This document shows positions 12,375-36,733 of a stretch of DNA of 53,175 nt, in pieces. The notes beneath the pieces were generated by a model, which was not told the DNA's origin, ran no database searches, and saw nothing but the letters and a program-made list of their open reading frames with translations. A program made the position numbers and the translations under genes. The DNA lies in IMG/VR virus record IMGVR_UViG_3300025652_000006, positions 1 through 53,175 of that record. One strand, written 5' to 3'. This DNA is from a virus. The number at the start of each line of letters is the position of its first letter. Positions within the stretch are counted from its first letter, which is position 1.

Positions 12375-12506
12375 AGTGTTCCAATCAATAAGTGATCATC
12401 CGGCCCACCCCGTTGGAACAAAGAAGGGGCAGGCCAGACGATCGGGCCATGGCAAGGGTATCACCGTGAGCGCTAAAAGGACAAGGCTAAACGGTCTGGA
12501 TTATCT
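12375..12506. other. Intergenic divergent control region, left part
   Basis: This stretch separates the leftward primase gene from the rightward element. It should hold the leftward promoter of the replication operon, but I could not fix one. A 21-codon minus-strand frame near 12450 is not convincing. Confidence 0.4.
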
Positions 12507-12536
12507 TTGCCAAAAGGATGTTTTTTCTAAAATAAA
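12507..12536 (+). promoter_or_regulatory. Candidate rightward promoter, copy 1 (TTGCCA-18-AATAAA)
   Basis: TTGCCA at 12507-12512 and AATAAA at 12531-12536 are separated by 18 bases. The same pair with the same spacing occurs in two other divergent intergenic regions. The predicted start of transcription falls at the first bases of the conserved RNA stem. Confidence 0.55.
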
Positions 12537-12540
12537 ACTA

Positions 12541-12660
12541 TAAGCTCAGTGGACCATGCGGTGCCTACCGACGGCAACCCCCAACGGGGGGAGGCCTAGA
12601 GGGGCAGAAAGCACAGTCCGAACTGTAGCTTACATATTTGTGATATATGGTCTTGCGTAG
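12541..12660 (+). ncRNA. Structured leader element, copy 1
   Basis: The RNA folds from TAAGCT (12541-12546) with AGCTTA (12627-12632), CAGT with ACTG, then GGAC (12551-12554) with GTCC (12616-12619), short inner helices (TGC/GCA, TGCC/GGCA) and a C5/G5 hairpin (12578-12590). Copies 2 and 3 keep these pairings while changing the bases. A TTGTGATATATGGTCTT tail is also conserved. It leads the terminase operon. Known put RNAs of phage HK022 modify RNA polymerase from a similar position; that role here is inference. Confidence 0.65.
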
Positions 12661-12687: not shown

Positions 12688-13248
12688 ATGAAAATCACAC
12701 TGACGATAGATGACATGGTCTTTGAGTTAGACGCTGCCAGCGGTGCAGATGCTAAGGCACAGGTAGACGGTATCCGGCGCGCCTTTACATGCAAGGCCCC
12801 GAAGGATGACACCCGCCCTGACGCCACGCCGCTGGAGATGCTCGTATGGGTAGACGAGTTTCCGGGTAATCATTCGATCCGCTGGCTGGATCGCAATTGC
12901 CCCTTTGGCAATGCCAAGACCATGATCACCCGCCTGGAAAAAGAAGAGCGGCTTGTACTCGCTGAGACGCTGTACCAGGGTAAGAAGCACATGCAGACAA
13001 TGCAGGCCGTGTACCTGCCAGGCACTGAGCCGTCATCCCTACCAGAAGCGGGCAGTGGGGCGCTACGTGCAAGGTTGGGGGTATGGCTAAAAGACAATCC
13101 CGGCCACGCGGTTAAATTTGTGGAGGATCACTGTGGCATCATCCGTAGCCGGGCAAAAGCGACGTTGACAAAATTGATCACGGCTGACACTGTAGAGGTG
13201 CGCGAGGTCAAAGGTAAGCCGTGCGTGTTTTTGAAAGGAACAAAATGA
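12688..13248 (+). CDS. Hypothetical protein, possible DNA-binding (186 aa)
   Basis: This is the first gene of the rightward packaging operon. The protein has two similar-looking segments (about residues 50-100 and 130-180; for example WLDRNCPFGNAKTMITRLEKE and a later RSRAKATLTKL), each with a helix-turn-helix feel and a following strand pair. That suggests duplicated winged-helix units, but I cannot prove it. No strong ribosome site precedes the ATG. Confidence 0.6.
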   Translation: MKITLTIDDMVFELDAASGADAKAQVDGIRRAFTCKAPKDDTRPDATPLEMLVWVDEFPGNHSIRWLDRNCPFGNAKTMITRLEKEERLVLAETLYQGKKHMQTMQAVYLPGTEPSSLPEAGSGALRARLGVWLKDNPGHAVKFVEDHCGIIRSRAKATLTKLITADTVEVREVKGKPCVFLKGTK

Positions 13249-13511
13249 TCGTAGAATTAGAGGGAAAGACAACACTCACCTGCAGTACATACGGGTGCAA
13301 CGAGGCCATTCAGGTGCCTTGTGTGGTGTACTTTGACACAGAAACAGAGCTTGATGTAGACTCAGTGCCGTCCTGTGTGGGCGAGACCACCGAAGTAGAC
13401 TGGGAGTACCCGAAGGGGTGGGGTGCCGAGACACGTTACATCTATAGCAGCTATCACCCCACTGGGGGCCATGTATGCCCCGTACACCTAAAGGAGCGAA
13501 ATGCCAGTTAA
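13245..13511 (+). CDS. Small putative zinc-binding protein (88 aa)
   Basis: The ATG at 13245 overlaps the previous stop (ATGA) and follows AAAGGAAC. Cys residues lie at the start (CSTYGCNEA) and end (VCPVH), spaced to form a zinc ribbon around a Trp/Tyr-rich middle. Function is unknown. Confidence 0.65.
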   Translation: MIVELEGKTTLTCSTYGCNEAIQVPCVVYFDTETELDVDSVPSCVGETTEVDWEYPKGWGAETRYIYSSYHPTGGHVCPVHLKERNAS

Positions 13512-13989
13512 AAAGACAGCAGAGAACCGGGCCGCAGCACGTGAAAGTCTCGCAAAGAAGAATTTCGACAAGCCACAGCGTACTAAGGCGGGACGATTCC
13601 CCAAAGGCGTAAGCGGCAATCCAGGCGGCACACGCGGAGGTGTAAAGGCCTTGGCCTATCGCATCCAAAAGGAAACGGCCGACGGTATGGAGATTGTGGA
13701 TCTCCTACTGCAGTGCATGCGCGGGCAGTTTGATGCCGAACACCTTAACGCCGGTATGCTTACGGATGCCGAGAAGTTCAAGGCCCGGCAATGGGCGATC
13801 GAGAAAGTCTTTGAACGTGGCTTTGGCAAACCTAAAGAAACGGTTGAGGTTATCTCAGGTTTCGAGGATGGCGGAGACGCTACCATGATTGATACCTCCA
13901 CCATGTCCGACGATGAGCTTGAAGCCCTCTCCAAGGCCGGTGATATCCTTGAGGCGCACGCCGCCAAGAAGGCCCCGATCGATGTCTAG
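13501..13989 (+). CDS. terS: Putative terminase small subunit (DUF5681-like)
   Basis: The protein has 162 residues. Near residue 32 it carries GRFPKGVSGNPGG, the conserved motif of the DUF5681 family, whose members lie beside terminase genes. A helical region follows, with an acidic C-terminus. The gene is four small genes upstream of the large terminase. A small subunit would recognise the packaging site and stimulate the motor. Identification rests on one motif and position. Confidence 0.62.
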   Translation: MPVKKTAENRAAARESLAKKNFDKPQRTKAGRFPKGVSGNPGGTRGGVKALAYRIQKETADGMEIVDLLLQCMRGQFDAEHLNAGMLTDAEKFKARQWAIEKVFERGFGKPKETVEVISGFEDGGDATMIDTSTMSDDELEALSKAGDILEAHAAKKAPIDV

Positions 13990-14227
13990 CGTCTACACCA
14001 TAGGCCTACCCTGTGATCAGACAATGCAGTATTGGGTAGGCCCTGTACTTAATCAGTGGACATTCTTAGGTAAAGAGGCGTGGCGCACTGAAGATAAGGC
14101 CGTTGCGGATCGCATGGTCGACATGATGTGCGAAGGACTTGAGGATCACGAGTTTCCGTCTCAGAGACCGTGGGTGTGTGAGCCGCAGGACGAGGACGAA
14201 CTCAATAGGGAGGATTGGACATGGTAA
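13982..14227 (+). CDS. Hypothetical acidic protein (81 aa)
   Basis: The ATG at 13982 overlaps the end of the terminase small subunit candidate by eight bases. The C-terminal third is very acidic (EPQDEDELNREDW). No family is recognised. Confidence 0.62.
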   Translation: MSSVYTIGLPCDQTMQYWVGPVLNQWTFLGKEAWRTEDKAVADRMVDMMCEGLEDHEFPSQRPWVCEPQDEDELNREDWTW

Positions 14228-14394
14228 CCCTAGGTGCAATAGGCATATTTATAGCCCTTGCGGTGCTTTGCAGCAGGAAGCCTCCACCACCTAAGCCGCA
14301 GGTACTTCCAGCGTGTAAGTTAGGCAAGAGGGCACGCCAGAACAAGCGCAGCTTACGTAGCCGTAGAATTAGAAGGGCAGGTATGAAAAGATGA
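14221..14394 (+). CDS. Small membrane-anchored basic protein (57 aa)
   Basis: The frame opens with one transmembrane helix (MVTLGAIGIFIALAVLC), then a proline patch (KPPPPKP) and a highly basic tail rich in Arg and Lys. Both ends overlap neighbours (ATGA at the stop). The tail would face the cytoplasm and could bind nucleic acid. Confidence 0.6.
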   Translation: MVTLGAIGIFIALAVLCSRKPPPPKPQVLPACKLGKRARQNKRSLRSRRIRRAGMKR

Positions 14395-14705
14395 GCTTCT
14401 GTAAGCACTGTGACGAGCACACCGAAAGGCCGCTAGATGTGTACTATGACGATCACAATCCTGCATTCTGCTCCTCAAGCTGCGAGACAGATTACAGCTA
14501 TCTGGAGTGTAGGGTGTCCGGTAAGCCCGAGCTTATGGACCTACCCCTAGGTGCCGAGGTCTTAGACTTTACGGGCCGGGCGTGGACACGGGGCAGCGTC
14601 GACGGGTCATGTGTGAACCTCACCCGGCCGGGGAACATGCGCGCCATCCTCCGCTTCTATCAGCCGATTGTCTTTACGGATGGCCATTGGCGGCTTTGTA
14701 AATGA
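14391..14705 (+). CDS. Putative zinc-finger protein (104 aa)
   Basis: N-terminal FCKHCDEH and, 18 residues on, FCSSSCETDY form a four-Cys zinc site resembling small DNA- or RNA-binding ribbons. The remainder is a small globular domain of unknown fold. It is coupled to both neighbours by overlaps. Confidence 0.65.
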   Translation: MSFCKHCDEHTERPLDVYYDDHNPAFCSSSCETDYSYLECRVSGKPELMDLPLGAEVLDFTGRAWTRGSVDGSCVNLTRPGNMRAILRFYQPIVFTDGHWRLCK

Positions 14706-14893
14706 TAGAGTCTATCCTAGAGATCACCTTATGTATGGGGCCAGAGGAGACCGTATGGCTAAACCCTACAGCGATAGCCACAGTGAGAGACGACGATCCT
14801 ACCTACTGTAGGGTCACGTTGATAGGTAGTCCCTACATGTACCGGATATACCTGCCTGGCAGCGAGGTACGTGCTATAATCGCCAAGAGGTGA
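14702..14893 (+). CDS. Hypothetical protein (63 aa)
   Basis: This is a small beta-rich protein. Its last codons contain the TGCTATAAT promoter-like box of the next gene, and its TGA overlaps the terminase GTG start. Confidence 0.6.
   Translation: MIESILEITLCMGPEETVWLNPTAIATVRDDDPTYCRVTLIGSPYMYRIYLPGSEVRAIIAKR
14872..14880 (+). promoter_or_regulatory. Extended -10 box before the large terminase (TGCTATAAT)
   Basis: This is a perfect extended -10 (TG-n-TATAAT), nine bases before the GTG start. Transcription would begin at or just before the start codon, although an AAGAGG ribosome site is also present. It lies inside coding sequence of the preceding gene. Confidence 0.45.
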
Positions 14894-16491
14894 GCTGCGA
14901 TCATGACTTTCTGAAGTCCCTGCACCCGCAGGGCAAGTGCCCGGTATGCCCAGACGTACCGGTGCATAAGCCCGTGGTGCAAGACATCAGGGCGCGTGCA
15001 CAGGCCGCTAAGATTGAGCTATCCAAGCGATCCCTTTACCACTTTCTGATAAACGGATGGCACGTTCTCGAACCGAACACCCCACTAGAGGGACACTGGC
15101 ACATCAAGACACTGTGCGATCATGTGCAATGGATGTTCGAGCAATGGGGGGGACGCGTACCTCAGGTGACGCAGAACCTTGATGTAAACGTCCCACCAGG
15201 TAGCCTTAAGTCCCGCATCGTGTCGGTGTACGGCCCAGCCTGGGCATGGCTGCCTAGTAACTGGCCTGGCATGTCTTTCCTGTGTCTGTCCTCCACACCG
15301 ACAGTTGCGATCCGTGATGCGGACTACAATAAAGAACTCATAGAGTCCGACTGGTACCGTCAGAGTTTCAATATCCCCTGGCACGTACGCTCTGATGCTG
15401 ACGCTAAGGGGCTGTTCAAAACCACCGCAGGTGGCCTTAGACAGTCGCAGGGGCTCAACGCTAAGATTGTCGGTGTACGTTGTGACTGTCTTCTGTTCGA
15501 CGATCCGAACGATGTTAAGGACATCTCAGACGTTAAACTGCAGCAGGTGGCCAACGGATACCTAGCTGCACGTAACCGCCTTAACGACCTGCGTAAGGGC
15601 TTCAGACTGGTAATCCAGCAGAGGACACACGAGAAGGACCTGTCCGGCAGGCTCCTGGCGTCTGGCGGGTGGGACCACCTGTGTATACCTATGGAGTACT
15701 CTCAGGCAAAGTGTGCGTGCGGTATGGATAAGTGCACCACAAAGCTAGGGACTGATGATCCTCGTACTGTGCCCGGTGAGGTCCTACACCCTGAGCGCAA
15801 CACCCCAGAGGTCCTAGCACAGGAGATGCTTGGCATGGGCAGTCTGGCGTACGCGGGGCAGATGAATCAAAGGCCGGCGCCTGAGGGTGGTGCGATGTTC
15901 AAGCTTGCCGACTGGCGCCACTACGATGAGCTGCCTCGTGACCGGCCCGGCAACCTGCAGACAGGGCAGGGCGTGCTTAGCATTGACTGCACCTTCGGCA
16001 AGGGCAAGCCAGGTGCGCCGCTGCGGGATAGGTGTGCAATGGTAGTTATCTTCCCCAAGGGCAAGGCCACACGCTTTGTAGACTACGCCTTTGCTGAGCG
16101 TATGGGCATCAAGGCGACCATCGCCAAGATCAAAGAGGTCTATGAGATGTACACCGACCCACGCACTGGCGGGCCGATGATCGGCAAGATCCTTATTGAG
16201 AAGGCCGCCAATGGCGAAGCCGTATGCGAGATGCTAGAGGATGAGCTACCGGGCATTAAGCTGATCATCGCCAACACTGACAAGATGTCACGCGCCAATG
16301 CCTGCTTGCCTACGGTCGAGGCGGGGAATATTCGCTTACGCAAGAATGCCCCGTGGGATGAGCAGTTCACTGCTGAACTGGCTGCATTCCCTACCGGGGC
16401 ACATGACGACTATGTCGACGCTTTCACCCAGGCGATCACCGAGATGGCGAGCGACATGGGCGGTAATTTGGCTAACGCTTGCGTGCTTTAG
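14890..16491 (+). CDS. terL: Terminase large subunit
   Basis: DNA-packaging motor of 533 residues. Seen: an adenine-binding region, a Walker A variant VPPGSLKS (about 101-108), Walker B CLLFDDPND (199-207), and nuclease-domain acidic residues in LSIDCTF and, near the end, HDDYVDA. A CACGMDKC knuckle (275-282) and an N-terminal CPVC are extra putative metal sites. The start is GTG, overlapping the upstream TGA. The protein pumps DNA into proheads and cuts concatemers. Its stop overlaps the last bases of a convergent gene. Confidence 0.93.
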   Translation: MSCDHDFLKSLHPQGKCPVCPDVPVHKPVVQDIRARAQAAKIELSKRSLYHFLINGWHVLEPNTPLEGHWHIKTLCDHVQWMFEQWGGRVPQVTQNLDVNVPPGSLKSRIVSVYGPAWAWLPSNWPGMSFLCLSSTPTVAIRDADYNKELIESDWYRQSFNIPWHVRSDADAKGLFKTTAGGLRQSQGLNAKIVGVRCDCLLFDDPNDVKDISDVKLQQVANGYLAARNRLNDLRKGFRLVIQQRTHEKDLSGRLLASGGWDHLCIPMEYSQAKCACGMDKCTTKLGTDDPRTVPGEVLHPERNTPEVLAQEMLGMGSLAYAGQMNQRPAPEGGAMFKLADWRHYDELPRDRPGNLQTGQGVLSIDCTFGKGKPGAPLRDRCAMVVIFPKGKATRFVDYAFAERMGIKATIAKIKEVYEMYTDPRTGGPMIGKILIEKAANGEAVCEMLEDELPGIKLIIANTDKMSRANACLPTVEAGNIRLRKNAPWDEQFTAELAAFPTGAHDDYVDAFTQAITEMASDMGGNLANACVL

Positions 16492-20802: not shown

Positions 20803-20854
20803 ACCCTTTTGTAGCCTACACAATCTGTGGTGTCTATAGGTTTCTTATTTTATT

Positions 20855-20884
20855 TTGATAGAAGGATGTTTTTCCCAAAATAAA
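20855..20884 (+). promoter_or_regulatory. Candidate rightward promoter, copy 2 (TTGATA-18-AATAAA)
   Basis: TTGATA at 20855-20860 and AATAAA at 20879-20884 are 18 bases apart, exactly as in copies 1 and 3. Similarity to copy 3 extends further left (a TTTTATTTTG run). Confidence 0.55.
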
Positions 20885-20888
20885 ACTA

Positions 20889-21010
20889 TAAGCTCAGAGG
20901 ACCTTGTCGGCCTACCCGCCGGGTTCCCCCTTGGGGGGCCACCCTAGGAGGGGCCTAGACCGATCCGAAGTGAGCTTAACCATTTGTATTATAGGTCTTT
21001 TCGTCCTTGT
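20889..21010 (+). ncRNA. Structured leader element, copy 2
   Basis: The basal stem is an uninterrupted 8 bp: TAAGCTCA (20889-20896) with TGAGCTTA (20971-20978). GGA/TCC and TCGG/CCGA follow inward, with a CCCC-CTTG-GGGG hairpin at the top. The downstream TTTGTATTATAGGTCTTT is shared with the other copies. It precedes the endonuclease-portal operon. Confidence 0.65.
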
Positions 21011-21041: not shown

Positions 21042-21413
21042 GTGACCGATGAGAAAAAGAAGGAAAGAGCGCGCAAGAGTCGGATCTGGCATCACCAAAA
21101 TAGGGACAGGGCGCTAGCCAGACAGAAAAAGTACAGGGATGAGAACCCTGACAAGGTCAGAGCGACTCAGCGCAAATCTCGATATGGCGTCACCCAGGAG
21201 CAGTATGACAACCTCTTGATTGAGCAAGCGTACTGCTGTGCCATATGTGTCCTGCCACCTAGAAAAGGCAGGCCACTATCGGTAGATCATTGCCACACAA
21301 CGGGCAAGATTCGAGGGCTCCTATGTAACAAGTGCAACCTTACGCTAGGAAGGTTCGGGGACGACTTAGCAGGAATTATGAGGGTCGCAGCCTATCTTAA
21401 AGGCGAACTCTGA
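21042..21413 (+). CDS. Recombination endonuclease VII-like protein
   Basis: The 123-residue protein matches the T4 endonuclease VII/HNH family: CCAIC (about 65-69) and a CNKCN pair hold the structural zinc, and VDHCHTTGKIRGLLC is the catalytic segment, with the His and Asn spaced as in the family. A basic helical N-terminus would bind DNA. The enzyme resolves branched DNA before packaging or assists terminase. It starts at GTG. Confidence 0.86.
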   Translation: MTDEKKKERARKSRIWHHQNRDRALARQKKYRDENPDKVRATQRKSRYGVTQEQYDNLLIEQAYCCAICVLPPRKGRPLSVDHCHTTGKIRGLLCNKCNLTLGRFGDDLAGIMRVAAYLKGEL

Positions 21414-21461
21414 TAGCCTCTACAGTATAGGTTCACTTTTCCGCGATTAGCTTATTTCCCG

Positions 21462-21470
21462 TGCTATATT
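21462..21470 (+). promoter_or_regulatory. Extended -10 box before the portal gene (TGCTATATT)
   Basis: The box lies in non-coding DNA, and the hexamer ends six bases before the ATG at 21477. The predicted transcript would start essentially at the start codon (leaderless). No clear -35 is seen, as is usual for extended -10 promoters. Confidence 0.45.
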
Positions 21471-21476
21471 AGGTTA

Positions 21477-23018
21477 ATGGCAAAACCTAAAGGGAATCCG
21501 AACATGGTAAAGGGGCGACCATCGATTAACCCTAAAGGCAGAGGCGGCCTCAAGGCACGCATCGATAGCGGTGCATTAGTACATGCTGACGGATGGCGCA
21601 ACCTGATCTCTGGCGTCAATGTGGCCGCCTATGATAAGCGCATGGCCTCGCACCCTGTCTGTGCTGACGTATCCTATGAAGACGCACAGGCGATCTGGCG
21701 TGGCGATGATGTAGGCGGGCGGGCAGTAGAAATCCCAGCTGAGGACATGATCCGCCAGGGGTTCGATTTCATCGCCGATGCCAAAGACGATGAGAGTCTA
21801 GATACCTCAGAGATCCAAGAGCAAGTCGAGAAGGCTTGGAAGGACCTGGGCGTGTTCCCGATCTTCAAAGAGGCTCTCATGAAGCGGGATGCATACGGCG
21901 GGTGTGCGGTGCTAGTCGGCGCCAAGGATAGCCAGGCAGATCTGACAATCCCCCTCAAGATAAAGAACGTGCGAGAGATCTCCTTTATGAACGTCTTTGA
22001 CAAGACGGAAATCATGCCAGAGTATTATTACGGCAATCCTAGAGAGGCCAATTACGGCAAGCCTGCAGTCTTTCAGATCGTGCCACGGGGCACCGGCCAG
22101 ACAGAGGACGGCGTGGTACACCATGAGATCATCCTGATCCACGAGTCCCGCCTTCTCGTTTTCAATGGCCGCCAGGTAGCAAGCCAGATCTCAGGTGACG
22201 GGTGGGGCGATAGCATCTTTGTACAGATGCACGATGTACTAAGGGATTTCAATGCGTCATGGGACGGCACAGGTAGTCTTGTTCAGGAGTTTGGCCAAGC
22301 GACGATTAAGCTCAAGGGCCTAAATGCCCTGCTGTGCACTGCCGATGGTGAGACACAACTAGCCTCACGCCTGCAGGCCATGCAGCTAGCCAAGAGCACA
22401 CTCAAAGCGACGGTACTAGACTCAGAGGATGAGTGGCTAAGACAGTCAGATAGCCTCTCAGGTCTGTCTGAGATCCTCCGGCAATACATGGGACGCATGT
22501 CAAGCGCATGTCGTGGCATCCCGATCACAAAACTTTTTGGCGTCGCACCCTCAGGGTTGAACGCATCGGGGGATAGTGATATCGCTCAATGGGATGATCG
22601 TGTCAAGTCAATGCAGGTGGACGGGGTTCTGCCGAACCTAGAGAAGCTCACACGCATTATTCTCTCAGCGAATAGCATCAAGTGTAAAGAGTGGTCGATT
22701 GTACCACGTCCGCTTAGGCAGCAGACCGACAAGGAGAAGGCCGAGACGCGCAAGATCGTAGCTGAGACGGATGCTATCTATGCGGGTATCGGGGCACTTT
22801 CAGCCGATGAGATCGCCGAGTCAAGATTTTCAGGTGATGTCTATTCTATGGAGACTGTGGTAGACTTTGAAGACAGGTCAGCACTAGAGGCAGAAATGCA
22901 GGCAGAGCAGGACCTCCTAATGAAGCAAGCCGAAACCCCTAACCCAAACCAGGCGCCGGCACCTGCCGAGGGCGAGAGTGCCGAACCTGGGGCCGAAAAG
23001 GCCAAGGAGCAGAAATAG
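21477..23018 (+). CDS. Portal protein (DUF1073/HI1409 family)
   Basis: The 513-residue protein has the DUF1073 portal hallmarks: an early AEDMIRQGFDF segment, the central YGGCAVLVG, RLLVFNGR, and FGVAPSGLNASGDSD motifs. The C-terminus is Glu/Ala/Pro-rich, with a coiled helix from about 440. Twelve copies form the head vertex through which DNA enters. An endonuclease VII gene lies upstream and a MuF-like gene downstream, the usual order. Confidence 0.88.
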   Translation: MAKPKGNPNMVKGRPSINPKGRGGLKARIDSGALVHADGWRNLISGVNVAAYDKRMASHPVCADVSYEDAQAIWRGDDVGGRAVEIPAEDMIRQGFDFIADAKDDESLDTSEIQEQVEKAWKDLGVFPIFKEALMKRDAYGGCAVLVGAKDSQADLTIPLKIKNVREISFMNVFDKTEIMPEYYYGNPREANYGKPAVFQIVPRGTGQTEDGVVHHEIILIHESRLLVFNGRQVASQISGDGWGDSIFVQMHDVLRDFNASWDGTGSLVQEFGQATIKLKGLNALLCTADGETQLASRLQAMQLAKSTLKATVLDSEDEWLRQSDSLSGLSEILRQYMGRMSSACRGIPITKLFGVAPSGLNASGDSDIAQWDDRVKSMQVDGVLPNLEKLTRIILSANSIKCKEWSIVPRPLRQQTDKEKAETRKIVAETDAIYAGIGALSADEIAESRFSGDVYSMETVVDFEDRSALEAEMQAEQDLLMKQAETPNPNQAPAPAEGESAEPGAEKAKEQK

Positions 23019-23019
23019 T

Positions 23020-23202
23020 ATGAGCCACCCTGTAAAACCATCAGCGGCAGAGGCAGAGTGCCTGGCTGATTTTCTTAGCGGCCCACAAAGACGTACGGTA
23101 CAGCGCAGGGAGCCTGGCCCGTACGACCCATGCCGGTGCGGCAAACTCATATGGTACTGTGATGAAACGGGCTGCGATCTCGCCACCAAGGAGCAGAAAT
23201 AG
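23020..23202 (+). CDS. Small zinc-knuckle protein (60 aa)
   Basis: The ATG lies two bases after the portal stop; a GGAGCAGAAATAG site precedes it. Cys residues in CRCGKLIWYCDETGC give a compact metal-binding pattern. The last codons repeat the KEQK ending of the portal gene (GGAGCAGAAATAG occurs at both ends), perhaps a small duplication. Confidence 0.62.
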   Translation: MSHPVKPSAAEAECLADFLSGPQRRTVQRREPGPYDPCRCGKLIWYCDETGCDLATKEQK

Positions 23203-23206
23203 ACAT

Positions 23207-23290
23207 ATGACATGCACACACACGATCCAAGGCGTATGCGAGAAATGTATTATTTTTGTCACAAGGGCATATGCCAAGAAAACTACCTAA
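23207..23290 (+). CDS. 27-residue CxxC peptide
   Basis: The frame opens MTCTHTIQGVCEKC, one Cys/His quartet that could bind zinc, then a basic tail. It starts four bases after the preceding stop and overlaps the MuF-like start. Real status is uncertain because of its size. Confidence 0.4.
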   Translation: MTCTHTIQGVCEKCIIFVTRAYAKKTT

Positions 23291-24056
23291 GCAGCACAGG
23301 CCAGCCGGGATCGAGCGTGACTATGCCAGAGAGTTGCGCAAGATCGCCAAGCGTGTCGACAAAGAGCTTGCGCCTTTAAAGCGTGAGCTGCCTGCCCTTA
23401 TCGAGCAAGCCAATACTGAGCGCAAGCGTGAGAGCGGTAATGTCTTCGACGCTGGCGAGTCTAGGCGTGTGCGTATTCTGCTAGAGCAGGCTGGCGAGCG
23501 CATACAGATCAAGACAGCTGCCCTAGAGGCACTCGCTCGTAAGTTTGCCGTACGCATACAGACGCACCAGCGTATTCAAATGAGCCGGCAAGTTAAAGCG
23601 GTGCTTGGGGTCGATCTGTCCTCTAACATCCCGCTACGGGCCTCTATGGAAGCCTTCGTAGCTGAAAACGTATCCTTGATCAAGGATGTACCGGCTAAGG
23701 TGCTAAGGGATATCCAGGGTATCGTCGATCGTGGCATCTCAGCAGGCGCACTACACAAAGATATCGCCAAAGAGATCCAGTCCGCTACTAGGCTAGGCGT
23801 ACAACGCTCTGCGGGTATCGCACGGGATCAGGTCGGTAAGTACTACGGCCAGGTACAGGCAACTCGACACAAGGCGATCGGCGTTAAGCGCTTTACCTGG
23901 AATTCTGTAGAGGATGAGCGCGTACGAAGTGAACACCAGAGCCTTAACGGTGAGACGTTTAGCTATGACAAGCTCCCTTCTGAGGGCCTGCCCGGTGAGC
24001 CGATCATGTGCCGCTGCTACGCAGATCCTGTGCTAGAGGACCTGCTAGACGGCTAG
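23271..24056 (+). CDS. MuF-like head morphogenesis protein
   Basis: The 261-residue protein has a long helical N-terminal region and, near the end, the MuF/SPP1 gp7 signature: W-N-S-V-E-D-E-R-V-R, then H-x2-LNGE, and a CRCYADP finish. These proteins sit inside the head next to the portal, and some are ejected with DNA. I chose the ATG at 23271 with AAGGG before it; a TTG 15 bases upstream is in frame. Confidence 0.84.
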   Translation: MPRKLPKQHRPAGIERDYARELRKIAKRVDKELAPLKRELPALIEQANTERKRESGNVFDAGESRRVRILLEQAGERIQIKTAALEALARKFAVRIQTHQRIQMSRQVKAVLGVDLSSNIPLRASMEAFVAENVSLIKDVPAKVLRDIQGIVDRGISAGALHKDIAKEIQSATRLGVQRSAGIARDQVGKYYGQVQATRHKAIGVKRFTWNSVEDERVRSEHQSLNGETFSYDKLPSEGLPGEPIMCRCYADPVLEDLLDG

Positions 24057-28801: not shown

Positions 28802-28849
28802 GAGGGAAGTATACCGCCGAAATCAGCGGATCGGGTTTCTCATTTTATT

Positions 28850-28879
28850 TTGCTAGAAGGCTGATTTTTCTTAAATAAA
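28850..28879 (+). promoter_or_regulatory. Candidate rightward promoter, copy 3 (TTGCTA-18-AATAAA)
   Basis: TTGCTA at 28850-28855 and AATAAA at 28874-28879 keep the 18-bp spacing of the other two copies. It would drive the long structural operon. Confidence 0.55.
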
Positions 28880-28883
28880 ACTA

Positions 28884-29002
28884 TAGACTCAGAGAGACCT
28901 TAGGCGGTTGCCCGACGGTTTTCCCCTTGGGGGGTCAACCTAGAGGCGCCACGCTTGGTCGACTCTGTAGTCTACATTATTGTATTATAGGTCTTTTACG
29001 TG
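28884..29002 (+). ncRNA. Structured leader element, copy 3
   Basis: TAGACT (28884-28889) pairs with AGTCTA (28969-28974), CAGAG (28890-28894) with CTCTG (28963-28967) leaving one bulged T, and GACC (28896-28899) with GGTC (28957-28960). GGTTG/CAACC and a CCCC-TT-GGGG tip follow. Relative to copies 1 and 2 at least four base pairs have changed on both sides, keeping pairing. The downstream TTGTATTATAGGTCTTTT is shared. Confidence 0.68.
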
Positions 29003-29013: not shown

Positions 29014-29304
29014 ATGCTAAGAGAGAACGTGACACGAGGGCACCAGGGATTTATTTACCGCGTAGCCGAAAGACTCCATAGGCATGACGCCCCAGGTGAG
29101 CTGGCAAAAGCAATAGAGCATGCCAAGGCTGAGGGGATGGATACAGAGATCCTCACAGCACTCTGCCTGTTAGTCGTGTGGAGAGACCGCACCTTTGGGG
29201 AACTGTGGCCTATGATAGAGCAGACACGCAGAGGCTGTTTAGATGTTGCCAGCGGTCTGGCCGCCAGCGGACTCTGTAGAGCATCCCAGATAGCACCAGT
29301 GTAG
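29014..29304 (+). CDS. Hypothetical protein (96 aa)
   Basis: I start at MLRENVTRG (29014), with GTAGGGAGATGT as a good ribosome site at the end of leader copy 3. The sequence is helical with several Arg/His and Cys residues. It is the first gene of the structural operon. Function is unknown. Confidence 0.66.
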   Translation: MLRENVTRGHQGFIYRVAERLHRHDAPGELAKAIEHAKAEGMDTEILTALCLLVVWRDRTFGELWPMIEQTRRGCLDVASGLAASGLCRASQIAPV

Positions 29305-29312
29305 GTGGGCGT

Positions 29313-29507
29313 ATGACAAGAGCGATAGCAAACAATGTAGTTTTCAGATGGATGGTAGGGCGCCTGTATGCTCGGACCTTCATAGCTCACATAACAGAGT
29401 ACCCTCCGGCGGGATACGGGGACTGTCTGTGTACTTCCTGTAAAGTGTGCAGATGGCACATGAGCAAAATGAAGCCTGCGCTACCTGAGGCACGTCTAAT
29501 TAAATAG
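29313..29507 (+). CDS. Small Cys-containing protein (64 aa)
   Basis: A basic N-terminus is followed by DCLCTSCKVCRWH, four Cys and a His that could hold zinc. It starts eight bases after the previous stop. No family is recognised. Confidence 0.6.
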   Translation: MTRAIANNVVFRWMVGRLYARTFIAHITEYPPAGYGDCLCTSCKVCRWHMSKMKPALPEARLIK

Positions 29508-29552
29508 ACGCTACAGTATTTGCAGAAAACTACACCCCTGCTGTAATTTCTA

Positions 29553-29561
29553 TGCTAGGCT
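29553..29561 (+). promoter_or_regulatory. Extended -10 box before the prohead protease gene (TGCTAGGCT)
   Basis: This non-coding box ends eight bases before the GTG start at 29570, as at the portal, terminase and fiber genes. The hexamer is weaker (TAGGCT). A TTGCAG upstream offers no better spacing. Confidence 0.38.
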
Positions 29562-29569
29562 AGACCGTA

Positions 29570-30676
29570 GTGGTCACTCGCATTGACATTGGGGAGCTAA
29601 AAGCCCCACGCGTACGCGCAGATGGTAGCCTCATTGTAGAGGCCCTCCTTACGCGTAGTGGTGTCTTTGAGTACCGTAACGATGACGGCACGCCGCGATT
29701 TGAGTACCGCCCACCTGCAGAGGTGTTTAAGGCTGACTCGATGGCTACATTCCAGATGGTCACGGTCACGAATGATCACCCTACTGAGATGGTCGACACT
29801 GAGAATGCTCTCAAAGTTGTAGTCGGCACAGTTGGCGAAAACGTGCGCAAGCATGGTGACCACGTAGCCGCTCCTTTGGTCATCTTTGACGCGTCCACAA
29901 TTGGGGACCTCAAGGGTGGCAAGCAACAAGTCTCATGTGGCTACCACGCTGACATGGTCGAGACTCCAGGCGTTACGCCCGAGGGAGTTTCCTATGACGC
30001 GATCCAAACAAATATTCGCGGCAATCATGTTGCCATTGTAGACATCGGCCGAGCTGGCCCTGACGCACGGATCCGAATGGATGCCGGGAAACTAGTAACG
30101 CCACCAAAGGCACACAAGGATACTAAAAACATGGATCTCATCCAAGCACTACAAAAAGTTGCCGAACTCACGGTAGAGAATACTGCTGAGAAAGCCCGGG
30201 CCGATAAAGCCGAGGCCGATCTCTCCGTTGCCACAGCCAAAGCCGACACGGTCGAAGCCGAGCGCGATGTAGCACAGGCAAAGGTTGACTCTGCCGAGAA
30301 GGCACGTACCGATGCAGACGCTAAGCGTGACGCTGACATCAATGAGGCTGTACAGCTTCGCACGGTAGCCCAGGCCCTTGTGCCTGATGCTGATGAGGCA
30401 GGCCCTGCCCGCTTCGATGGCAAGACAAACAAAGAAATTAAGGTAGCTGTAGTCGAGGCCGTTCACGGCAAATTCGACGCAGAGAAGTCTGACGACTACC
30501 TGCAGTGTCTTTATGACATCGCTGTCAAAGACGCAGCAGCCGGAGACGGTGCACTTGATGCCGCTAACGCTACCGGAAATCTCACAAAAGCAACCCCAAA
30601 AGTTGACGCAGAAGATAAAGCCTACGCCGACATGATGGAACGAAACCGAAACGCCGGTAAAAGGACCTCTAAATAA
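29570..30676 (+). CDS. Prohead protease/scaffold (DUF2213 family)
   Basis: The 368-residue protein has an N-terminal DUF2213 domain (about 1-170): TRSGVFEYRND, a VTNDHP motif with the likely catalytic His, then SCGYHADMVE, and NHVAIVDIGRAG. From about 190 to 270 it is a long Ala/Glu/Lys/Asp coiled coil, as expected of a scaffold. DUF2213 genes precede the cement protein and DUF2184 capsid genes in this phage group. It would template and then mature the prohead. The GTG start is tentative. Confidence 0.8.
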   Translation: MVTRIDIGELKAPRVRADGSLIVEALLTRSGVFEYRNDDGTPRFEYRPPAEVFKADSMATFQMVTVTNDHPTEMVDTENALKVVVGTVGENVRKHGDHVAAPLVIFDASTIGDLKGGKQQVSCGYHADMVETPGVTPEGVSYDAIQTNIRGNHVAIVDIGRAGPDARIRMDAGKLVTPPKAHKDTKNMDLIQALQKVAELTVENTAEKARADKAEADLSVATAKADTVEAERDVAQAKVDSAEKARTDADAKRDADINEAVQLRTVAQALVPDADEAGPARFDGKTNKEIKVAVVEAVHGKFDAEKSDDYLQCLYDIAVKDAAAGDGALDAANATGNLTKATPKVDAEDKAYADMMERNRNAGKRTSK

Positions 30677-31185
30677 TGCCTGTTCAAACTACATTTTCCA
30701 CCACTCGCACAGCTAGCCGAGAAGGCACCCTAGACGGTACCGGATCCTACAGCGTCGAGCCCCTTCGCAACGATGAGGCATCTGCCGAGATTGCTTTCGG
30801 CGTAGCCGTTAAGCAGGGCAGCGCAACAGACGAGCGCTCAGCAAAGCTCCTTACCGCCATCACAGGCGAGAAGGTTGCCGGCATCGTGCTCTACCGGGAT
30901 GAGTACGATACCACTCAGCTCGGTACTACAGGCATCCTGCCGACATACGAAGTCAACGTAGTTCGCCAAGGCCGTATGAAAGTCATTTGCGAAGACGGCT
31001 GCTCTATCGGTGACCCTCTCCACGTGCGCGCAGTTGCCGCAGGTGCAGAGCTTGCCGGTGCATGCCTCGCTGCCTCAGACGGTACCGACACCATCGATTG
31101 TTCGGCTAACGGCCAGTGGCGCACAAGCGCAGCAGCGGGCGAAATCGCTGTCCTCGAATTCGATTTCACCAACTCACCTACCTAG
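30676..31185 (+). CDS. Putative head decoration/structural cement protein
   Basis: The 169-residue protein is beta-rich and Ala/Gly/Thr-heavy, with the GCSIGDPLHVRA and YEVNVVRQGRM segments resembling Gp24-type structural cement proteins. Its place between the protease and the capsid gene is typical. It would stabilise the expanded capsid from outside. The start overlaps the scaffold stop. Confidence 0.7.
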   Translation: MPVQTTFSTTRTASREGTLDGTGSYSVEPLRNDEASAEIAFGVAVKQGSATDERSAKLLTAITGEKVAGIVLYRDEYDTTQLGTTGILPTYEVNVVRQGRMKVICEDGCSIGDPLHVRAVAAGAELAGACLAASDGTDTIDCSANGQWRTSAAAGEIAVLEFDFTNSPT

Positions 31186-31196
31186 GATAAGTTCTT

Positions 31197-31598
31197 ATGG
31201 GCACTCCCCTACCAAGTCTAAATCAGGAGCCGTTTGAGTTTTCATTCTCACACGACTCTCTCACCTCTAGTGAGGTACGGGTAGTGTTATCTGCCCGCCG
31301 CAAGTTTGTTATTGACCGAGCAATCTATGTCAATGACGCGGGCCTAGCTGAGGATGCCGCTAACTTCTTTGCTATCTCTCTAGCTATCAAAGAGCCAGGT
31401 GGTGCCTTTGTTCAGTCTCACTTGTTCTCAACTGAGACAGGCGAGGGCGGGACGATCGCAGCAGCCACGCCTACCACGGTCCCAAAGGTCGGAGTGGCCA
31501 CAGGATCAGCACTCTCACAAGTACGCCTCTCTTACACCGAATCAGGCACAGCAACGCTACCAACCGGGCGCCTCCAAGTCGAAGGCCGTTACCTCTAA
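31197..31598 (+). CDS. Probable virion protein (133 aa)
   Basis: This is a beta-rich protein with Thr/Ala-rich turns (GGTIAAATPTTVPKVG) between the cement and capsid genes. It could be a second decoration protein or a capsid fiber. AAGTTCTT before the ATG is a weak ribosome site. Confidence 0.62.
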   Translation: MGTPLPSLNQEPFEFSFSHDSLTSSEVRVVLSARRKFVIDRAIYVNDAGLAEDAANFFAISLAIKEPGGAFVQSHLFSTETGEGGTIAAATPTTVPKVGVATGSALSQVRLSYTESGTATLPTGRLQVEGRYL

Positions 31599-31607
31599 GG
31601 ATCATTT

Positions 31608-32543
31608 ATGTCACTCAAGAACTACAATCACGAATACTTTGATGCTCCTGCTAACGCGTTTCTTCGCCGAGAGCTTGAGTACGTACGCACCAAGATGTAC
31701 GAAACCCTATTCCCTCAGTTTCAGGCGCGTAGCCTTGTCACTGTAAACCACGAGGTGCCGAACTGGGCCGAAGTCGACACGTTTAACGTGATGGCTGAGT
31801 ACGGTGAAGCGAAACTCGGTGGTGGATACACGACTGCACCCCCACGTGTCGGAGTGTCAATCAGTGACGTATCGGCAGGCATCAAGCCAATCACTGCAGC
31901 TTACGGATGGAGCCTTACAGAGCTTCGCAAGTCAGTTGCAACCGGTCGCCGACTCGACCAACTCAAAGCACGCGTTGCGCGCACGGTAGTTGAGCAACTG
32001 ATCGACCAAACGATCATGCTCGGTAGCTCTGCAGAGGGTCTCGCTGGTCTTTTCCTTCTCTCCGGTACCAACACACAGGCACCTCTTACGGGTGCGGTCG
32101 ATGACACTTGGGCGAACAAGACCTCTGACGAGGTTATCGCTGACCTTAACGCACTTAAGAATAAGTCTGTTAACGTCTCCAAGTCTATCTACTCTGTAGA
32201 TACGATTGCGATGTGTACCCTTGACAAGCAATTCCTTGAAGAGCGGCGCATGCGAGACTCGAACAACACGAGCATTCTCGATCACTTCCGAGGCGTCAAC
32301 CCTGGCATCGAAATCAAGGACTCTATCTTCCTTGAGTCAAACACAGGCTGGACTGGCACCCGCATCATGGCTTATTACAACTCACCAGAGTTTATCGAGT
32401 CTGTCATTCCGCAGGAGTTTGAACAACTCGCACCACAGACAGTCAACTACGAGACTGTTATCAACTGCCACGCACGTATCGCAGGCATCCGCCTTCCGCA
32501 CCCTAAGAGCGTTACGTACATGGATAACGTTCAGTCCTCATAA
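31608..32543 (+). CDS. Major capsid protein (DUF2184, HK97 fold)
   Basis: The 311-residue protein is of the DUF2184/HI1409 capsid family: FLRRELEYV, the AEYGEAKLGGGY loop, AAYGWSLTELRKS, and a C-terminal strand set (RIAGIRLPHPKS). The length is typical. The gene lies where the capsid is expected and is followed at once by a terminator hairpin, as often seen after the most abundant virion gene. Confidence 0.88.
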   Translation: MSLKNYNHEYFDAPANAFLRRELEYVRTKMYETLFPQFQARSLVTVNHEVPNWAEVDTFNVMAEYGEAKLGGGYTTAPPRVGVSISDVSAGIKPITAAYGWSLTELRKSVATGRRLDQLKARVARTVVEQLIDQTIMLGSSAEGLAGLFLLSGTNTQAPLTGAVDDTWANKTSDEVIADLNALKNKSVNVSKSIYSVDTIAMCTLDKQFLEERRMRDSNNTSILDHFRGVNPGIEIKDSIFLESNTGWTGTRIMAYYNSPEFIESVIPQEFEQLAPQTVNYETVINCHARIAGIRLPHPKSVTYMDNVQSS

Positions 32544-32565
32544 GACATACTCTTAGCTTAGGTCT

Positions 32566-32600
32566 AGACCTCCGCTGCCTTTGGTGGTGGGGGTCTTTTT
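32566..32600 (+). terminator. Rho-independent terminator or attenuator after the capsid gene
   Basis: AGACC (32566-32570) and GGTCT (32592-32596) form an outer stem, extended inward by CC/GG pairs, followed by TTTTT. It would lower transcription of the downstream tail genes relative to the capsid gene. Confidence 0.75.
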
Positions 32601-32613
32601 ACAAGGATACCAA

Positions 32614-33129
32614 ATGGGACTCAGCACATATAAAGGCATCGACTCTGACAAGCTAGTATCAGTTAATGAGTTTCTAAAGCTGTCGGCATCGCCTTTTATG
32701 AACGTAGACGGCAGTGTTACGCCCAAGGTTTTCTCTGTCTCGCCTGCCTTACTCGGCGTCAATTTCCTGGTACTCTCTCGCCTTCTTGTACATATCGAGG
32801 ATAACGGTGCCATCACTGCGGATGACTACGGCGCACTAGCAACGTTATCCAGCGGGCTACGTATTCAGAAGACGATCGGCGGCATCACGTACAACCTGGA
32901 CGGAGGGCTACCGATCACAGGAAATACGCACTGGGCACGTCTGGCGTTTGACATGAAGGAGCACGTCTTCGGATCAGGCAATAACTTTGTGACCGCACGT
33001 TGGACCTTTGGGGCCACAGGTATTCCGATGATCCTACAAGGCGCCGATGTGCTCTTTGTAACGGTTAACGATGATTTAACGACTCTCGTCGAGCACACAA
33101 TGCTAGTACAGGGATACACACATAAATAA
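32614..33129 (+). CDS. Hypothetical head-tail region protein (171 aa)
   Basis: I start at MGLSTYKGI (32614), behind AAGGATACCAA. It is a beta-rich protein of unknown fold between the capsid and the connector genes. It may be a head fiber or head completion protein; position is the only support. Confidence 0.65.
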   Translation: MGLSTYKGIDSDKLVSVNEFLKLSASPFMNVDGSVTPKVFSVSPALLGVNFLVLSRLLVHIEDNGAITADDYGALATLSSGLRIQKTIGGITYNLDGGLPITGNTHWARLAFDMKEHVFGSGNNFVTARWTFGATGIPMILQGADVLFVTVNDDLTTLVEHTMLVQGYTHK

Positions 33130-33491
33130 TGGCATCCATCACCTGGTCAGACGTTACAGACTACGCCGCAGAGCTATCTACGGTGGCCGTAGGCGTGCAG
33201 ACAGATATCCTGGCATTGGCCAACGGGTACCTTAAAGTCGACTGTTTCGGTGGAGAGTCAGGCATCAAACTGAAGATTGCCCGGATCAATATCGCCGCAC
33301 ACTTCGGCCTAACGCTCGGCACTACCAACGGCGCCCACGGGCAAGTGCTCTCAGAAGAACTCGGAGACATGAAGCGCCAGTACGGCAAGCAAGCCATGTT
33401 CGCGGATTCGGAATTCGGGTCTACGAAGTACGGCCGTGCATATCTAACGATCCTCGCTGGCGCGAATAGCCGTGGGGGCTTTGTACTTTAG
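33129..33491 (+). CDS. Head-tail adaptor (DUF4054-like)
   Basis: The 120-residue protein is helical with a LEELGDMKRQYG-like segment (VLSEELGDMKRQYGK) and a C-terminal GRAYLTIL, matching DUF4054 adaptors that dock on the portal. Its start overlaps the preceding TAA, and its TAG abuts the next GTG. Confidence 0.76.
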   Translation: MASITWSDVTDYAAELSTVAVGVQTDILALANGYLKVDCFGGESGIKLKIARINIAAHFGLTLGTTNGAHGQVLSEELGDMKRQYGKQAMFADSEFGSTKYGRAYLTILAGANSRGGFVL

Positions 33492-33958
33492 TGGATGTTC
33501 AAATCAACGATAAACGCTGGCGAGAGCTTGTGGCCAAGATCGGAAAAGAGATGGCTAACAAAGGCGTACGCGTTGGTGTGCTCGCTGAAAAGGGGGGCAA
33601 CGAAGATCGGGACGGCATCACCATGATAGAACTCGCTGCCATCCATGAATTCGGAAGCCAGGCCGCAGGCATCCCAGAGCGCAGCTTTATCCGGTCTGCC
33701 TTTGAGGGGTCCACTTCAGAGCATGCTCAGAGGATCATGATGGGCAAGACAATCAAAGGTGTAATTGAGGATCGTATGACGCCAGATCAGGCACTCGAAA
33801 TGCTCGGCCTTTGGGGCGTCTCGCGCATCAAAAAAGGGATCAAGGCAGGCATCGATCCGGCCAACGCTGACAGCACCGTTGCCAAAAAAGGATCAAGCAA
33901 ACCACTTGTAGACACCGGCAGGCTACTAAACGCGATCAATCATAAGGTGGAGTCCTAG
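33491..33958 (+). CDS. Tail completion/neck protein (HK97 gp10-like)
   Basis: The 155-residue protein has the gp10-type core: a GVRVGVLAEKGG strand, IHEFGSQ with following PERSFIRSAF, and a C-terminal GRLLNAINHKV. Such proteins join head and tail. A GTG start overlaps the upstream stop. Confidence 0.74.
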   Translation: MDVQINDKRWRELVAKIGKEMANKGVRVGVLAEKGGNEDRDGITMIELAAIHEFGSQAAGIPERSFIRSAFEGSTSEHAQRIMMGKTIKGVIEDRMTPDQALEMLGLWGVSRIKKGIKAGIDPANADSTVAKKGSSKPLVDTGRLLNAINHKVES

Positions 33959-34308
33959 TGCTTAGCGGTGTCCTCTCATCGTTTCAGACGGGTACGTATA
34001 CAGTGCGCAGGCGTACAGCGCGTACGCTGGTGCTAGGCGTCTCGACACCGGGAGCAGAGTCTACGTTCTCTGTCGATGGGGTAGTACAGCCTTTGACAGG
34101 ACAGCAGCTAAGCCTTTTACCTGGTGGCATGACATCACATAACACGCGCCGTATCTGGACAGAAACAGCACTACAGGCTGAGGCTGACGGTATAGGGCCG
34201 GACATCGTAGAGATCGCTGGGCAGGATTACCGCGTCTATCAGGCACAAGAGTGGACCGGCCTAGACGGTGATCACTATCGCGCACTCGTAACAACGTGGG
34301 TCGAATGA
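33958..34308 (+). CDS. Head closure or neck protein (116 aa)
   Basis: This small beta-barrel-like protein starts at GTG (33958). The gene order adaptor, gp10-like, this gene, neck protein is that of head closure genes in similar phages. No diagnostic motif is seen. Confidence 0.6.
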   Translation: MLSGVLSSFQTGTYTVRRRTARTLVLGVSTPGAESTFSVDGVVQPLTGQQLSLLPGGMTSHNTRRIWTETALQAEADGIGPDIVEIAGQDYRVYQAQEWTGLDGDHYRALVTTWVE

Positions 34309-35897
34309 GTAGATCTCTAACAACAATTCAAGCGGCGATCGCAACGTGGATCGAAGCATCCACAGGCCTGCCTACGCTATGGGCAAACCAGGACACCCCG
34401 CGCCCGCGTGAGGCGTACGTATTGGTCAACTCAACGTGTAGCCCCATCGGTCGACCGTGGGTAGACGGATCGGTAAACCCCTCACCAAGTGCAGGGGCCG
34501 AGGCTGTATATACCGCGCGCATGGTGGAGCGTCTATCGCTGACCATTCAGATTTTCAATACATCCACGCTAGGCGATGCAAGCGCGAGCGACTTGCTTAC
34601 AGGTCTTATCCTCGCGTCTGAGCTACCTACAAGGGCGGTGGCATTGGATGCGGCCGGATGGTCGCCTGCAGCTTTTGGCGATGTCACAGACGTAAGCGCA
34701 CCGAGCGGAGCGGCATACTTTGAGCCTCGCACACTGCTAACATGCTTCGGATACTCGGCACCAGAGGCCAGCGAAACTGGTACAGTCATCGGGTCCGCTG
34801 AGATCATGAATAGCGACGGGGTGATCGACTACGTTGGCACATCGTCTCGCATGAAAGCACAGGCCGCCATCGTGGCACGTGCCGAGGTGTACGCCGCAGC
34901 GTATGTGCAGGTGACAGGGATCTTGGACGGTGCAGCCGCTGTTTCCGCGCAGGCCCTAGTAGCTGCCGCTGTGAGGGCCATACTCAATGTGTCTGCCGAC
35001 GTATCCGCATCAGCAGCGGTAGCCGCATCATGTGCCGCTGTCCTACAGGCAGGCGCATCCACACAGGCACAGGCTGTAGTGGCCGCAGCGGTAGCGTCTA
35101 CACTGGTAGCGGCAGCAGCGGCCTCTGGATCCGCAACTGTGGCAGCCTCCGCCTCACTGACTTCGGCCGCACGATCTTGGACCACTGGCAGGGATTACTT
35201 TAGTTCTGCTTTCGCAACTGATGAATGGTTGATCGGCAACACAACGTACTCTAGCGGGTACGCGCCCAATGTCGGCACAGAAACGCTAGTAGACAACGGA
35301 GCTGGTGGCCTAACTGGGCAGACGTCGACTAATGTTGTCACCGGCGGGGTGGCCTGCGGTGCATGGGACTCTGTAGACACCGGTGATCGTCTTGAGTCAG
35401 ACGGGACTACGGCAGGAGACTTTAATGCACTCACGACCGACTTCGCCTTTCGGATGGTGTTCGAGGTTATCGGTGGATCGCTCCCTAACTCAGAATATCT
35501 CTTAACCAAGTTTAATACGAGCACGGGCGGTTGGCGCATCTACTCTTCGGGCGGAGAGTGGTTCTTTGGGCTTTGGGATAACTCAGGGAACACGGCGGGC
35601 GTATTCGCAGCTAACCCGGCCAGCGGGTCCTATGCAGATGGTGACACCCACTATATGACCGGCTGGGTCGATGCCAGTACCGGCACAATTTACACTAAGG
35701 GTGACCTAAGCGCGGAGGCGTCTGCCTCTATTGCTGCGGACATTGTCGACTCTACGATCACCACAGCAGCGCTGCACGTCAATGGCTACGCAAGTACTAC
35801 CGGTCTGGCCGGACTCAAGTGCATCAGCGTTTCCGTATGTGTCGGGGCGAACGCCCAGAACCTCTACGATGAGACTTTCTGGAACCACCCACCGTGA
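34305..35897 (+). CDS. Neck protein fused to Ala-rich stalk and lectin-like domain
   Basis: The 530-residue protein is a mosaic. Residues 1-165 resemble the LIC_12616/neck terminator family that caps the tail tube (SRSLTTIQAAIATWIE, TPRPREAYVLVN). Residues 175-285 are an Ala/Val-rich repeat region predicted to form a long helix or stalk. Residues 290-510 look like a LamG/concanavalin-type beta-sandwich (GDRLESDG, FAFRMVFEV, WRIYSSGGEWFFGLW, HYMTGWVDASTGT). The fusion would put sugar-binding arms at the neck, as whiskers do. The start overlaps the upstream stop. Confidence 0.72.
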   Translation: MSRSLTTIQAAIATWIEASTGLPTLWANQDTPRPREAYVLVNSTCSPIGRPWVDGSVNPSPSAGAEAVYTARMVERLSLTIQIFNTSTLGDASASDLLTGLILASELPTRAVALDAAGWSPAAFGDVTDVSAPSGAAYFEPRTLLTCFGYSAPEASETGTVIGSAEIMNSDGVIDYVGTSSRMKAQAAIVARAEVYAAAYVQVTGILDGAAAVSAQALVAAAVRAILNVSADVSASAAVAASCAAVLQAGASTQAQAVVAAAVASTLVAAAAASGSATVAASASLTSAARSWTTGRDYFSSAFATDEWLIGNTTYSSGYAPNVGTETLVDNGAGGLTGQTSTNVVTGGVACGAWDSVDTGDRLESDGTTAGDFNALTTDFAFRMVFEVIGGSLPNSEYLLTKFNTSTGGWRIYSSGGEWFFGLWDNSGNTAGVFAANPASGSYADGDTHYMTGWVDASTGTIYTKGDLSAEASASIAADIVDSTITTAALHVNGYASTTGLAGLKCISVSVCVGANAQNLYDETFWNHPP

Positions 35898-35960
35898 TCT
35901 GTGCGAAACAACCTTAAAAAATACTTTTATTTATGATACCCTTACAAAAGGATTACACCT

Positions 35961-36350
35961 ATGGCAGAATTTTCTAACTATGCTGAAAACGCGGTACTAA
36001 ATCACCTACTGCGTAACGTCGCACTGACATCACCGACCACGGTGTACCTCTCCCTCTACAGTACCGATCCTACTGATGCGGACTCAGGCTCAGAGCTGGC
36101 AGCAGCCAACGGGTACGCCAGGATCGCGATCGCTTTTGACGCCCCAAGCGGTGGGGTATGTCTAAGTACAGCAGAACTTACCTTTACCGCATCCGGTGCG
36201 GACTGGTCTGCAGCCACACACATCGGCATCCACGATGCATCGACAGCGGGCAACCTCCTATTTCACACCCCTTTGGCAGCGTCACGCACCGCACTTGATG
36301 GTGACTCGATCGTCTTTGCGGCTAATGCTGTATCGGTAACCCTACAGTAA
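35961..36350 (+). CDS. Conserved phage virion protein (129 aa)
   Basis: The opening AEFSNYAENAVLNHLLRN and the following TTVYLSLYSTDPT match a small protein widespread in phages, often near tail fiber or neck genes, of unknown function. A good AAAAGG site stands ahead of the ATG. It is beta-rich, as expected of a virion decoration. Confidence 0.72.
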   Translation: MAEFSNYAENAVLNHLLRNVALTSPTTVYLSLYSTDPTDADSGSELAAANGYARIAIAFDAPSGGVCLSTAELTFTASGADWSAATHIGIHDASTAGNLLFHTPLAASRTALDGDSIVFAANAVSVTLQ

Positions 36351-36351
36351 T

Positions 36352-36690: not shown

Positions 36691-36713
36691 ATTTACAGTA
36701 CCAGCATATTTCA

Positions 36714-36722
36714 TGCTAGAAT
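36714..36722 (+). promoter_or_regulatory. Extended -10 box before the sheath gene (TGCTAGAAT)
   Basis: This non-coding box has its hexamer 11 bases before the ATG at 36734. A TTTACA lies upstream at a 19-bp spacing and may act as a -35. The transcript leader would be only a few bases. Confidence 0.45.
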
Positions 36723-36733
36723 AGAGGCGCACT

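Follow-up and report, generated by a model that had tools for sequence, protein, structure and literature searches.

The DNA analysed here, referred to throughout as the window, is a stretch of 53,175 nt (54% GC) that holds the complete genome of a contractile-tailed phage. An exact direct repeat of 127 bp is found at the two ends (1-127 and 53049-53175), and the DNA polymerase gene is split over them on the minus strand (1-1554 and 52341-53174), with both parts matching one gene of MW202816; the record therefore represents a complete genome, either circularly closed or permuted. MW202816, an uncultivated myovirus from Manatee Spring, is the nearest annotated record, with structural proteins 34-46% identical, and a genome-contig search returned one weak MAG match that gives no clue to the host. 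Genes for tRNA-Val and tRNA-Arg, together with a third tRNA-like sequence detected by Rfam only, are located on the minus strand at 2220-2295, 2406-2479 and 6494-6580. The late genes are organized into three rightward blocks with leftward blocks between them, and each of these late blocks for particle building is headed by one copy of a repeated element, which lies in every case between a leftward gene on its left and the rightward operon on its right, as had been predicted. All three copies share the orientation of the late genes, and the first gene after the element differs among them. The features concerned are as follows.

12499..12543, plus strand: AT-rich block of copy 1, presumed promoter/control region, 78% AT
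12541..12632, plus strand: imperfect hairpin of copy 1, 92 nt (TAAGCT...AGCTTA)
12637..12654, plus strand: 3' conserved box of copy 1, TTTGTGATATATGGTCTT
12688..16491, plus strand: rightward operon 1, headed by copy 1; three small genes, then the terminase large subunit
13501-13989, plus strand: TerS-like gene of operon 1, with a DUF5681 match
14890-16491, plus strand: terminase large subunit (TerL) of operon 1
20838..20888, plus strand: AT-rich block of copy 2, containing the most AT-rich 45 bp of the genome
20856-20865, plus strand: motif TGATAGAAGG in the AT-rich block of copy 2
20889..20978, plus strand: imperfect hairpin of copy 2, 90 nt
20984..21001, plus strand: 3' conserved box of copy 2, TTGTATTATAGGTCTTTT
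21042..24056, plus strand: rightward operon 2, headed by copy 2; endonuclease VII, portal, MuF-like head protein
28834..28883, plus strand: AT-rich block of copy 3, 78% AT
28851-28860, plus strand: motif TGCTAGAAGG in the AT-rich block of copy 3
28884..28974, plus strand: imperfect hairpin of copy 3, 91 nt (TAGACT...AGTCTA)
28980..28997, plus strand: 3' conserved box of copy 3, TTGTATTATAGGTCTTTT
29014..50427, plus strand: rightward operon 3, headed by copy 3; late particle genes, namely a small ORF (29014-29304), head protease, capsid, tail sheath, tape measure and baseplate
32568..32600, plus strand: hairpin with T-run resembling an intrinsic terminator, directly downstream of the capsid gene within operon 3

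The copies extend over 12501-12654, 20838-21001 and 28834-28997, with identities of 76% between copies 2 and 3 (BLAST E=1e-24), 74% between copies 1 and 2 (4e-17) and 70% between copies 1 and 3, and the sequence AAATAAAACTATARRCTCAG occurs three times in the window against 0 expected. Neither BLAST nor a covariance model with all filters off yields a fourth copy in the window, which bears out the predicted family of three. Read from 5' to 3', each copy is composed of an AT-rich block that ends with the invariant AAATAAAACTATA, an unbranched imperfect hairpin of 90-92 nt and a 3' conserved box; the first start codon follows the end of the hairpin by 41-73 nt. The similarity of copies 2 and 3 has fairly sharp edges, as in a mobile (MITE-like) repeat; however, no terminal inverted repeats or target-site duplications are seen when the flanks of these two copies are read directly, and the three copies occupy equivalent operon heads. 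Together with the conserved pairing described below and E-values far from chance, this makes a mobile repeat or a chance similarity hardly credible.

Both the minimum-energy and the centroid folds of all copies consist of a single unbranched hairpin of ~91 nt, with energies of -43.5, -41.4 and -44.3 kcal/mol for copies 1, 2 and 3 (z -4.0, -1.6 and -3.9). The helix sequences given in the original prediction are correct: copies 1 and 2 share the basal helix TAAGCT/AGCTTA, which copy 3 replaces by TAGACT/AGTCTA, the second helix is CAGT/ACTG in copy 1 and CAGAG/CTCTG in copy 3, the third is GGAC/GTCC in copy 1 and GACC/GGTC in copy 3, and a C-run is set against a G-run at the tip of every copy. 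The second and third helices pair in copies 1 and 3; the prediction did not mention that copy 2 loses two pairs of the second helix to G.G and A.A and keeps only GGA/TCC of the third. One column of the sub-apical helix shows three pair types (C-G, G-C and U-A). The 3' side of the hairpin carries a conserved bulged GA, and a conserved internal loop is formed in copies 1 and 3 by CC-GAC-GG opposite CC-UAGA-GG, the corresponding parts of copy 2 reading GCC and UAGGA.

In a sequence-only MAFFT alignment of the three copies, pairing is found in 91% of cells, and 6 of the 30 pairs have changed on both sides and still pair. The covariation score amounts to 0.322 versus 0.162 in shuffles (1/500), with slid controls reaching at most 0.11; under a null that redistributes the substitutions, pairs are kept at P<0.05 in 4/6 copy-to-copy structure transfers, and double changes in 3/6. 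These values agree with the covarying stems that had been predicted and constitute good evidence, at n=3 sequences and below R-scape-grade support, that the pairing has been conserved between the copies. Whichever 5' end is chosen, the hairpin fold is preferred in transcripts that stop no more than about 30 nt beyond it; when more downstream sequence is included, refolding is predicted for copies 1 and 2 and not for copy 3. A switch in which the 3' box would pair instead with the 5' arm (AGAGGACCU/AGGUCUUUU; GGACCAU/AUGGUCU in copy 1) was rejected, as this pairing is only marginal (P=0.03). In a sliding-window fold scan of the genome, the elements rank with the more stable stretches without being unique.

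The AT content of the AT-rich blocks is 78-80% against a genome mean of 46%, and the blocks of copies 2, 3 and 1 rank first, second and fourth among separate 45-bp stretches of the genome. AT-rich flanks between divergent genes are as expected for a promoter region, and we infer promoter activity from them. An extended -10-like TGnTAGAAGG is present in the flanks of copies 2 and 3 (four matches in the window versus 0.7 expected) and absent from copy 1, where the corresponding site reads TGCCAAAAGG; no -35 sequence and no promoter consistent over all three copies was found. If TATAAG/TATAGA served as the -10 sequence, the basal helix would be left untranscribed. Extended -10 sites of the form TGCTAnnAT before the TerL, portal and sheath genes looked promising in the window and were rejected, as relatives show no enrichment of them.

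The hairpin is nearly symmetric between strands. The reverse complement folds 0.2-3.6 kcal/mol better in all three copies (z -5.0, -2.3 and -5.1), strand-specific pair cells are equal in number (G.U 3, A.C 3), and the covariance model matches its own element on the reverse strand with E=0.0007. Because the opposite strand folds slightly better, the acting strand can be assigned only by inference, and it is the position that points to the rightward (plus) strand as probably the transcribed and acting one: rightward transcripts from the AT block would cross the hairpin first, whereas the leftward start codons next to copies 2 and 3 are only about 30 bp from the left edge of the element, such that leftward promoters should lie in or beside the AT block and their transcripts should miss the hairpin. 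A hairpin that heads or terminates leftward transcripts is accordingly very unlikely, even though the minus strand folds better, the right edge of copies 2 and 3 reads TATAAT on that strand and TATAGTTTTATTT follows leftward in all copies; besides the nearness of the leftward genes, a terminator at this place is needed by no leftward gene, the hairpin is followed by a tail that opens with UAUAG instead of a U-run, and no -35 is present. As an intrinsic terminator, the element lacks a U-run directly after the hairpin in the rightward direction, and in the leftward direction an AU-rich basal helix is followed by UAUAGUUUUAUUU, with only a partial fold of copy 1 scoring. The product of the leftward gene beside copy 3 (28325-28801, minus strand) is C39-peptidase-like and weakly matches an endolysin; the gene starts with TTG 7 nt behind TATACT. 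A strongly folded stretch (z=-5.5) adjoins copy 1 at 12385-12480 on the minus strand, in the leftward leader of a DnaB-like helicase gene.

Related contigs were found by alignment via the helicase, protease and portal genes; single-protein scans detected no close relatives. A homologous element was found neither by blastn in 50,697 phage records and 72,556 plasmids, nor among the ~110 viral contigs related to the phage, where the R1 covariance model was run over 32 sources covering 11 related records and MW202816 and over 81 portal-containing loci, nor in three pattern scans of IMG/VR, from which two matches in coding sequence of unrelated contigs were rejected as copies. Similarly, no Rfam 15 family exceeds its gathering threshold in the elements, the window yielding tRNAs only, and Rfam hits inside the elements are at chance level, with copy 2 covered by the gathering scan only. 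The original prediction had proposed both kinds of search: its remark that it did not recognise the motif from any described family is borne out, and the search of related phage genomes gave no copy in the relatives covered. As a sequence family, the element is thus undescribed in Rfam 15 and found in no other genome searched, and, with no homologue in these relatives, its comparative support is limited to three copies of one genome.

The layout around the element is nevertheless shared. In G001, G011 and G029, as far as each contig extends over the sites concerned, opposite-strand genes interrupt the late region at the same two positions, which makes the split layout a feature of the lineage. 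Strong hairpins (z below -4 in a 95-nt window, gaps of 250-1000 bp) occur in relatives at 9/19 divergent boundaries versus 4/63 tandem or convergent gaps (Fisher P=1e-4), an enrichment that rests on simple shuffles and a few partly related genomes. Several of these hairpins head the TerL operon and have a C-run/G-run tip, with sequences unrelated to the element. In three contigs, the head of the late operon (G004 24122-24778, G006 36167-36682 and G015 16667-17162; L126, L123 and L128) contains many GGGAAYGAAGAC-type motifs in direct and inverted orientation, together with a hairpin whose stem differs between the contigs by compensatory changes. The relatives' hairpins, including those of G001 (about 31780-31875) and G011 (about 9220-9345), resemble the element in syntenic place, length and often the C-run/G-run tip; they differ from it in showing no sequence similarity, in not being multi-copy at operon heads and in having another fold. 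Repeats of an early type in relatives (GGTATACTGAGAA..ATG and the L161/L163 repeats) were rejected as late leaders, being promoter-start repeats of opposite-strand genes.

Repeated motifs such as GGGAAYGAAGAC would suit a replication or operator region, which keeps a role at the DNA level in play: the element would then be a long imperfect palindrome next to an AT-rich stretch and would serve as an operator or activator site or as a structure for replication or single-strand initiation. The strand symmetry of the fold, the AT-rich flank and the DnaB-like helicase gene adjoining copy 1 are consistent with such a role, and inverted as well as direct repeats occupy the corresponding gap of relatives. 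At the same time, all three copies are oriented like the late genes, no replication genes lie near copies 2 and 3, the conserved asymmetric bulges are typical of RNA, and GC skew shows no sharp switch except where gene direction changes; a DNA-level element is therefore regarded as a serious though somewhat unlikely explanation.

The preferred reading, to which a probability of about one half is assigned, is that the element is a duplicated promoter-plus-leader head module of the late transcription unit that acts in cis. The AT-rich block between divergent gene blocks would be the promoter or control region, and the rightward transcript from it would begin with the ~91-nt hairpin as its leader. 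Leftward blocks split the late genes into three rightward units, each of which would have kept its own copy, such that the module would mark three separate operons as one regulon. Once transcribed, the hairpin would affect, in cis, either the transcript or the polymerase that synthesises it; the best guess is that RNA polymerase or an RNA-binding factor of phage or host recognises the internal loop, the GA bulge and the C/G tip, and an RNA-binding protein, whether phage or host, would best explain the conserved internal loop.

Two narrower forms of the head module may be considered. In the first, the leader would be a 5' stabiliser or an RNase III-type cleavage site of the late mRNAs. In phage T7, RNase III sites follow promoters, and the element is alike in anatomy, with an imperfect hairpin containing internal loops that is repeated at operon or gene heads behind a presumed promoter. 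General use of leader hairpins in this genome is also suggested by a second repeat family, unrelated to the three-copy element and with no relatives found: its two direct copies (24290-24412 and 25096-25218; 88.6%) form a strong hairpin, each ending at the start ATG of a small leftward gene (24060-24293 and 24902-25099). However, no helix of the three-copy hairpin has 12 uninterrupted pairs, and the conserved internal loop and tip demand more than generic double strand, leaving mRNA processing or protection a rather unlikely function.

In the second form, the leader would bind the elongating RNA polymerase and allow terminators to be read through without a protein factor, as put RNA does: it suppresses termination through the beta' zinc-binding domain, with no protein factor involved. 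The putL and putR RNAs of HK022 are cis-acting structured RNAs in early phage leaders, placed directly behind promoters or a few hundred nt after them in more than one copy per genome, with ~70 nt and two stem-loops each (PMC9378689). The likeness to put drawn in the original prediction is supported only in part, as regards a structured, multi-copy element at operon heads, with the leader position behind a promoter only presumed from the AT-rich flank directly upstream and no promoter common to all copies identified. It finds no support in the architecture, because put has two stem-loops and serves early operons of a lambdoid phage, whereas each copy here is one ~91-nt unbranched hairpin at a late operon; none has two stem-loops in ~70 nt. 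Apart from position, antitermination is favoured by the conserved internal loop and bulge, which suggest specific recognition, and by the genes scanned, among which no product was recognisable as a sigma factor, RNA polymerase or N/Q-like protein. The terminators to be passed are only partly there: one clear example after the capsid gene (32568-32600) is followed by 17 kb of tail genes in operon 3, but operons 1 and 2 have no convincing internal terminator. Moreover, a terminator-like hairpin after the capsid gene is found in 9/47 related loci tested, including loci in which the R1 model finds no element (L145, L146, L149, L159, L175, L194, L212 and L213). The capsid terminator is thus a feature of the lineage that is not tied to the element, which does not refute antitermination; on balance, put-like antitermination is considered doubtful. 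A still more speculative version, given slightly less weight, holds that a protein-independent RNA with a fold unrelated to put would modify RNA polymerase in cis to a put-like effect, that its three uses would keep the split late transcription processive, and that fast-evolving, unrelated counterparts would head the late operons of relatives.

As a kind, the repeated structured phage leader, the element joins the put RNAs, the T7 RNase III sites and the ESAS repeats. The ESAS of cluster K mycobacteriophages are imperfect inverted repeats of unknown function upstream of several genes, with 17-bp half-sites and a 4-13 bp spacer, and at many genes they go together with a 13-bp start-associated repeat (PMC3203893). 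Both are phage-specific families of imperfect inverted repeats at several genes; the element, unlike ESAS, spans ~160 bp, occurs in three copies at operon heads only and lies 41-73 nt from the start codon, and no repeat adjoins the start codons of the three operons. Provided that the element is a cis-acting leader RNA, inserted blocks would have cut the late regulon and a copied promoter-leader module would hold the pieces together; the three sequences would then serve as a natural experiment for testing how late genes are controlled at the RNA level, in a phage group without a cultured member among those found. At the far end of operon 3, the stretch 50089-50184 has the lowest z of the whole genome (-7.2) and includes a terminator at 50148-50166.
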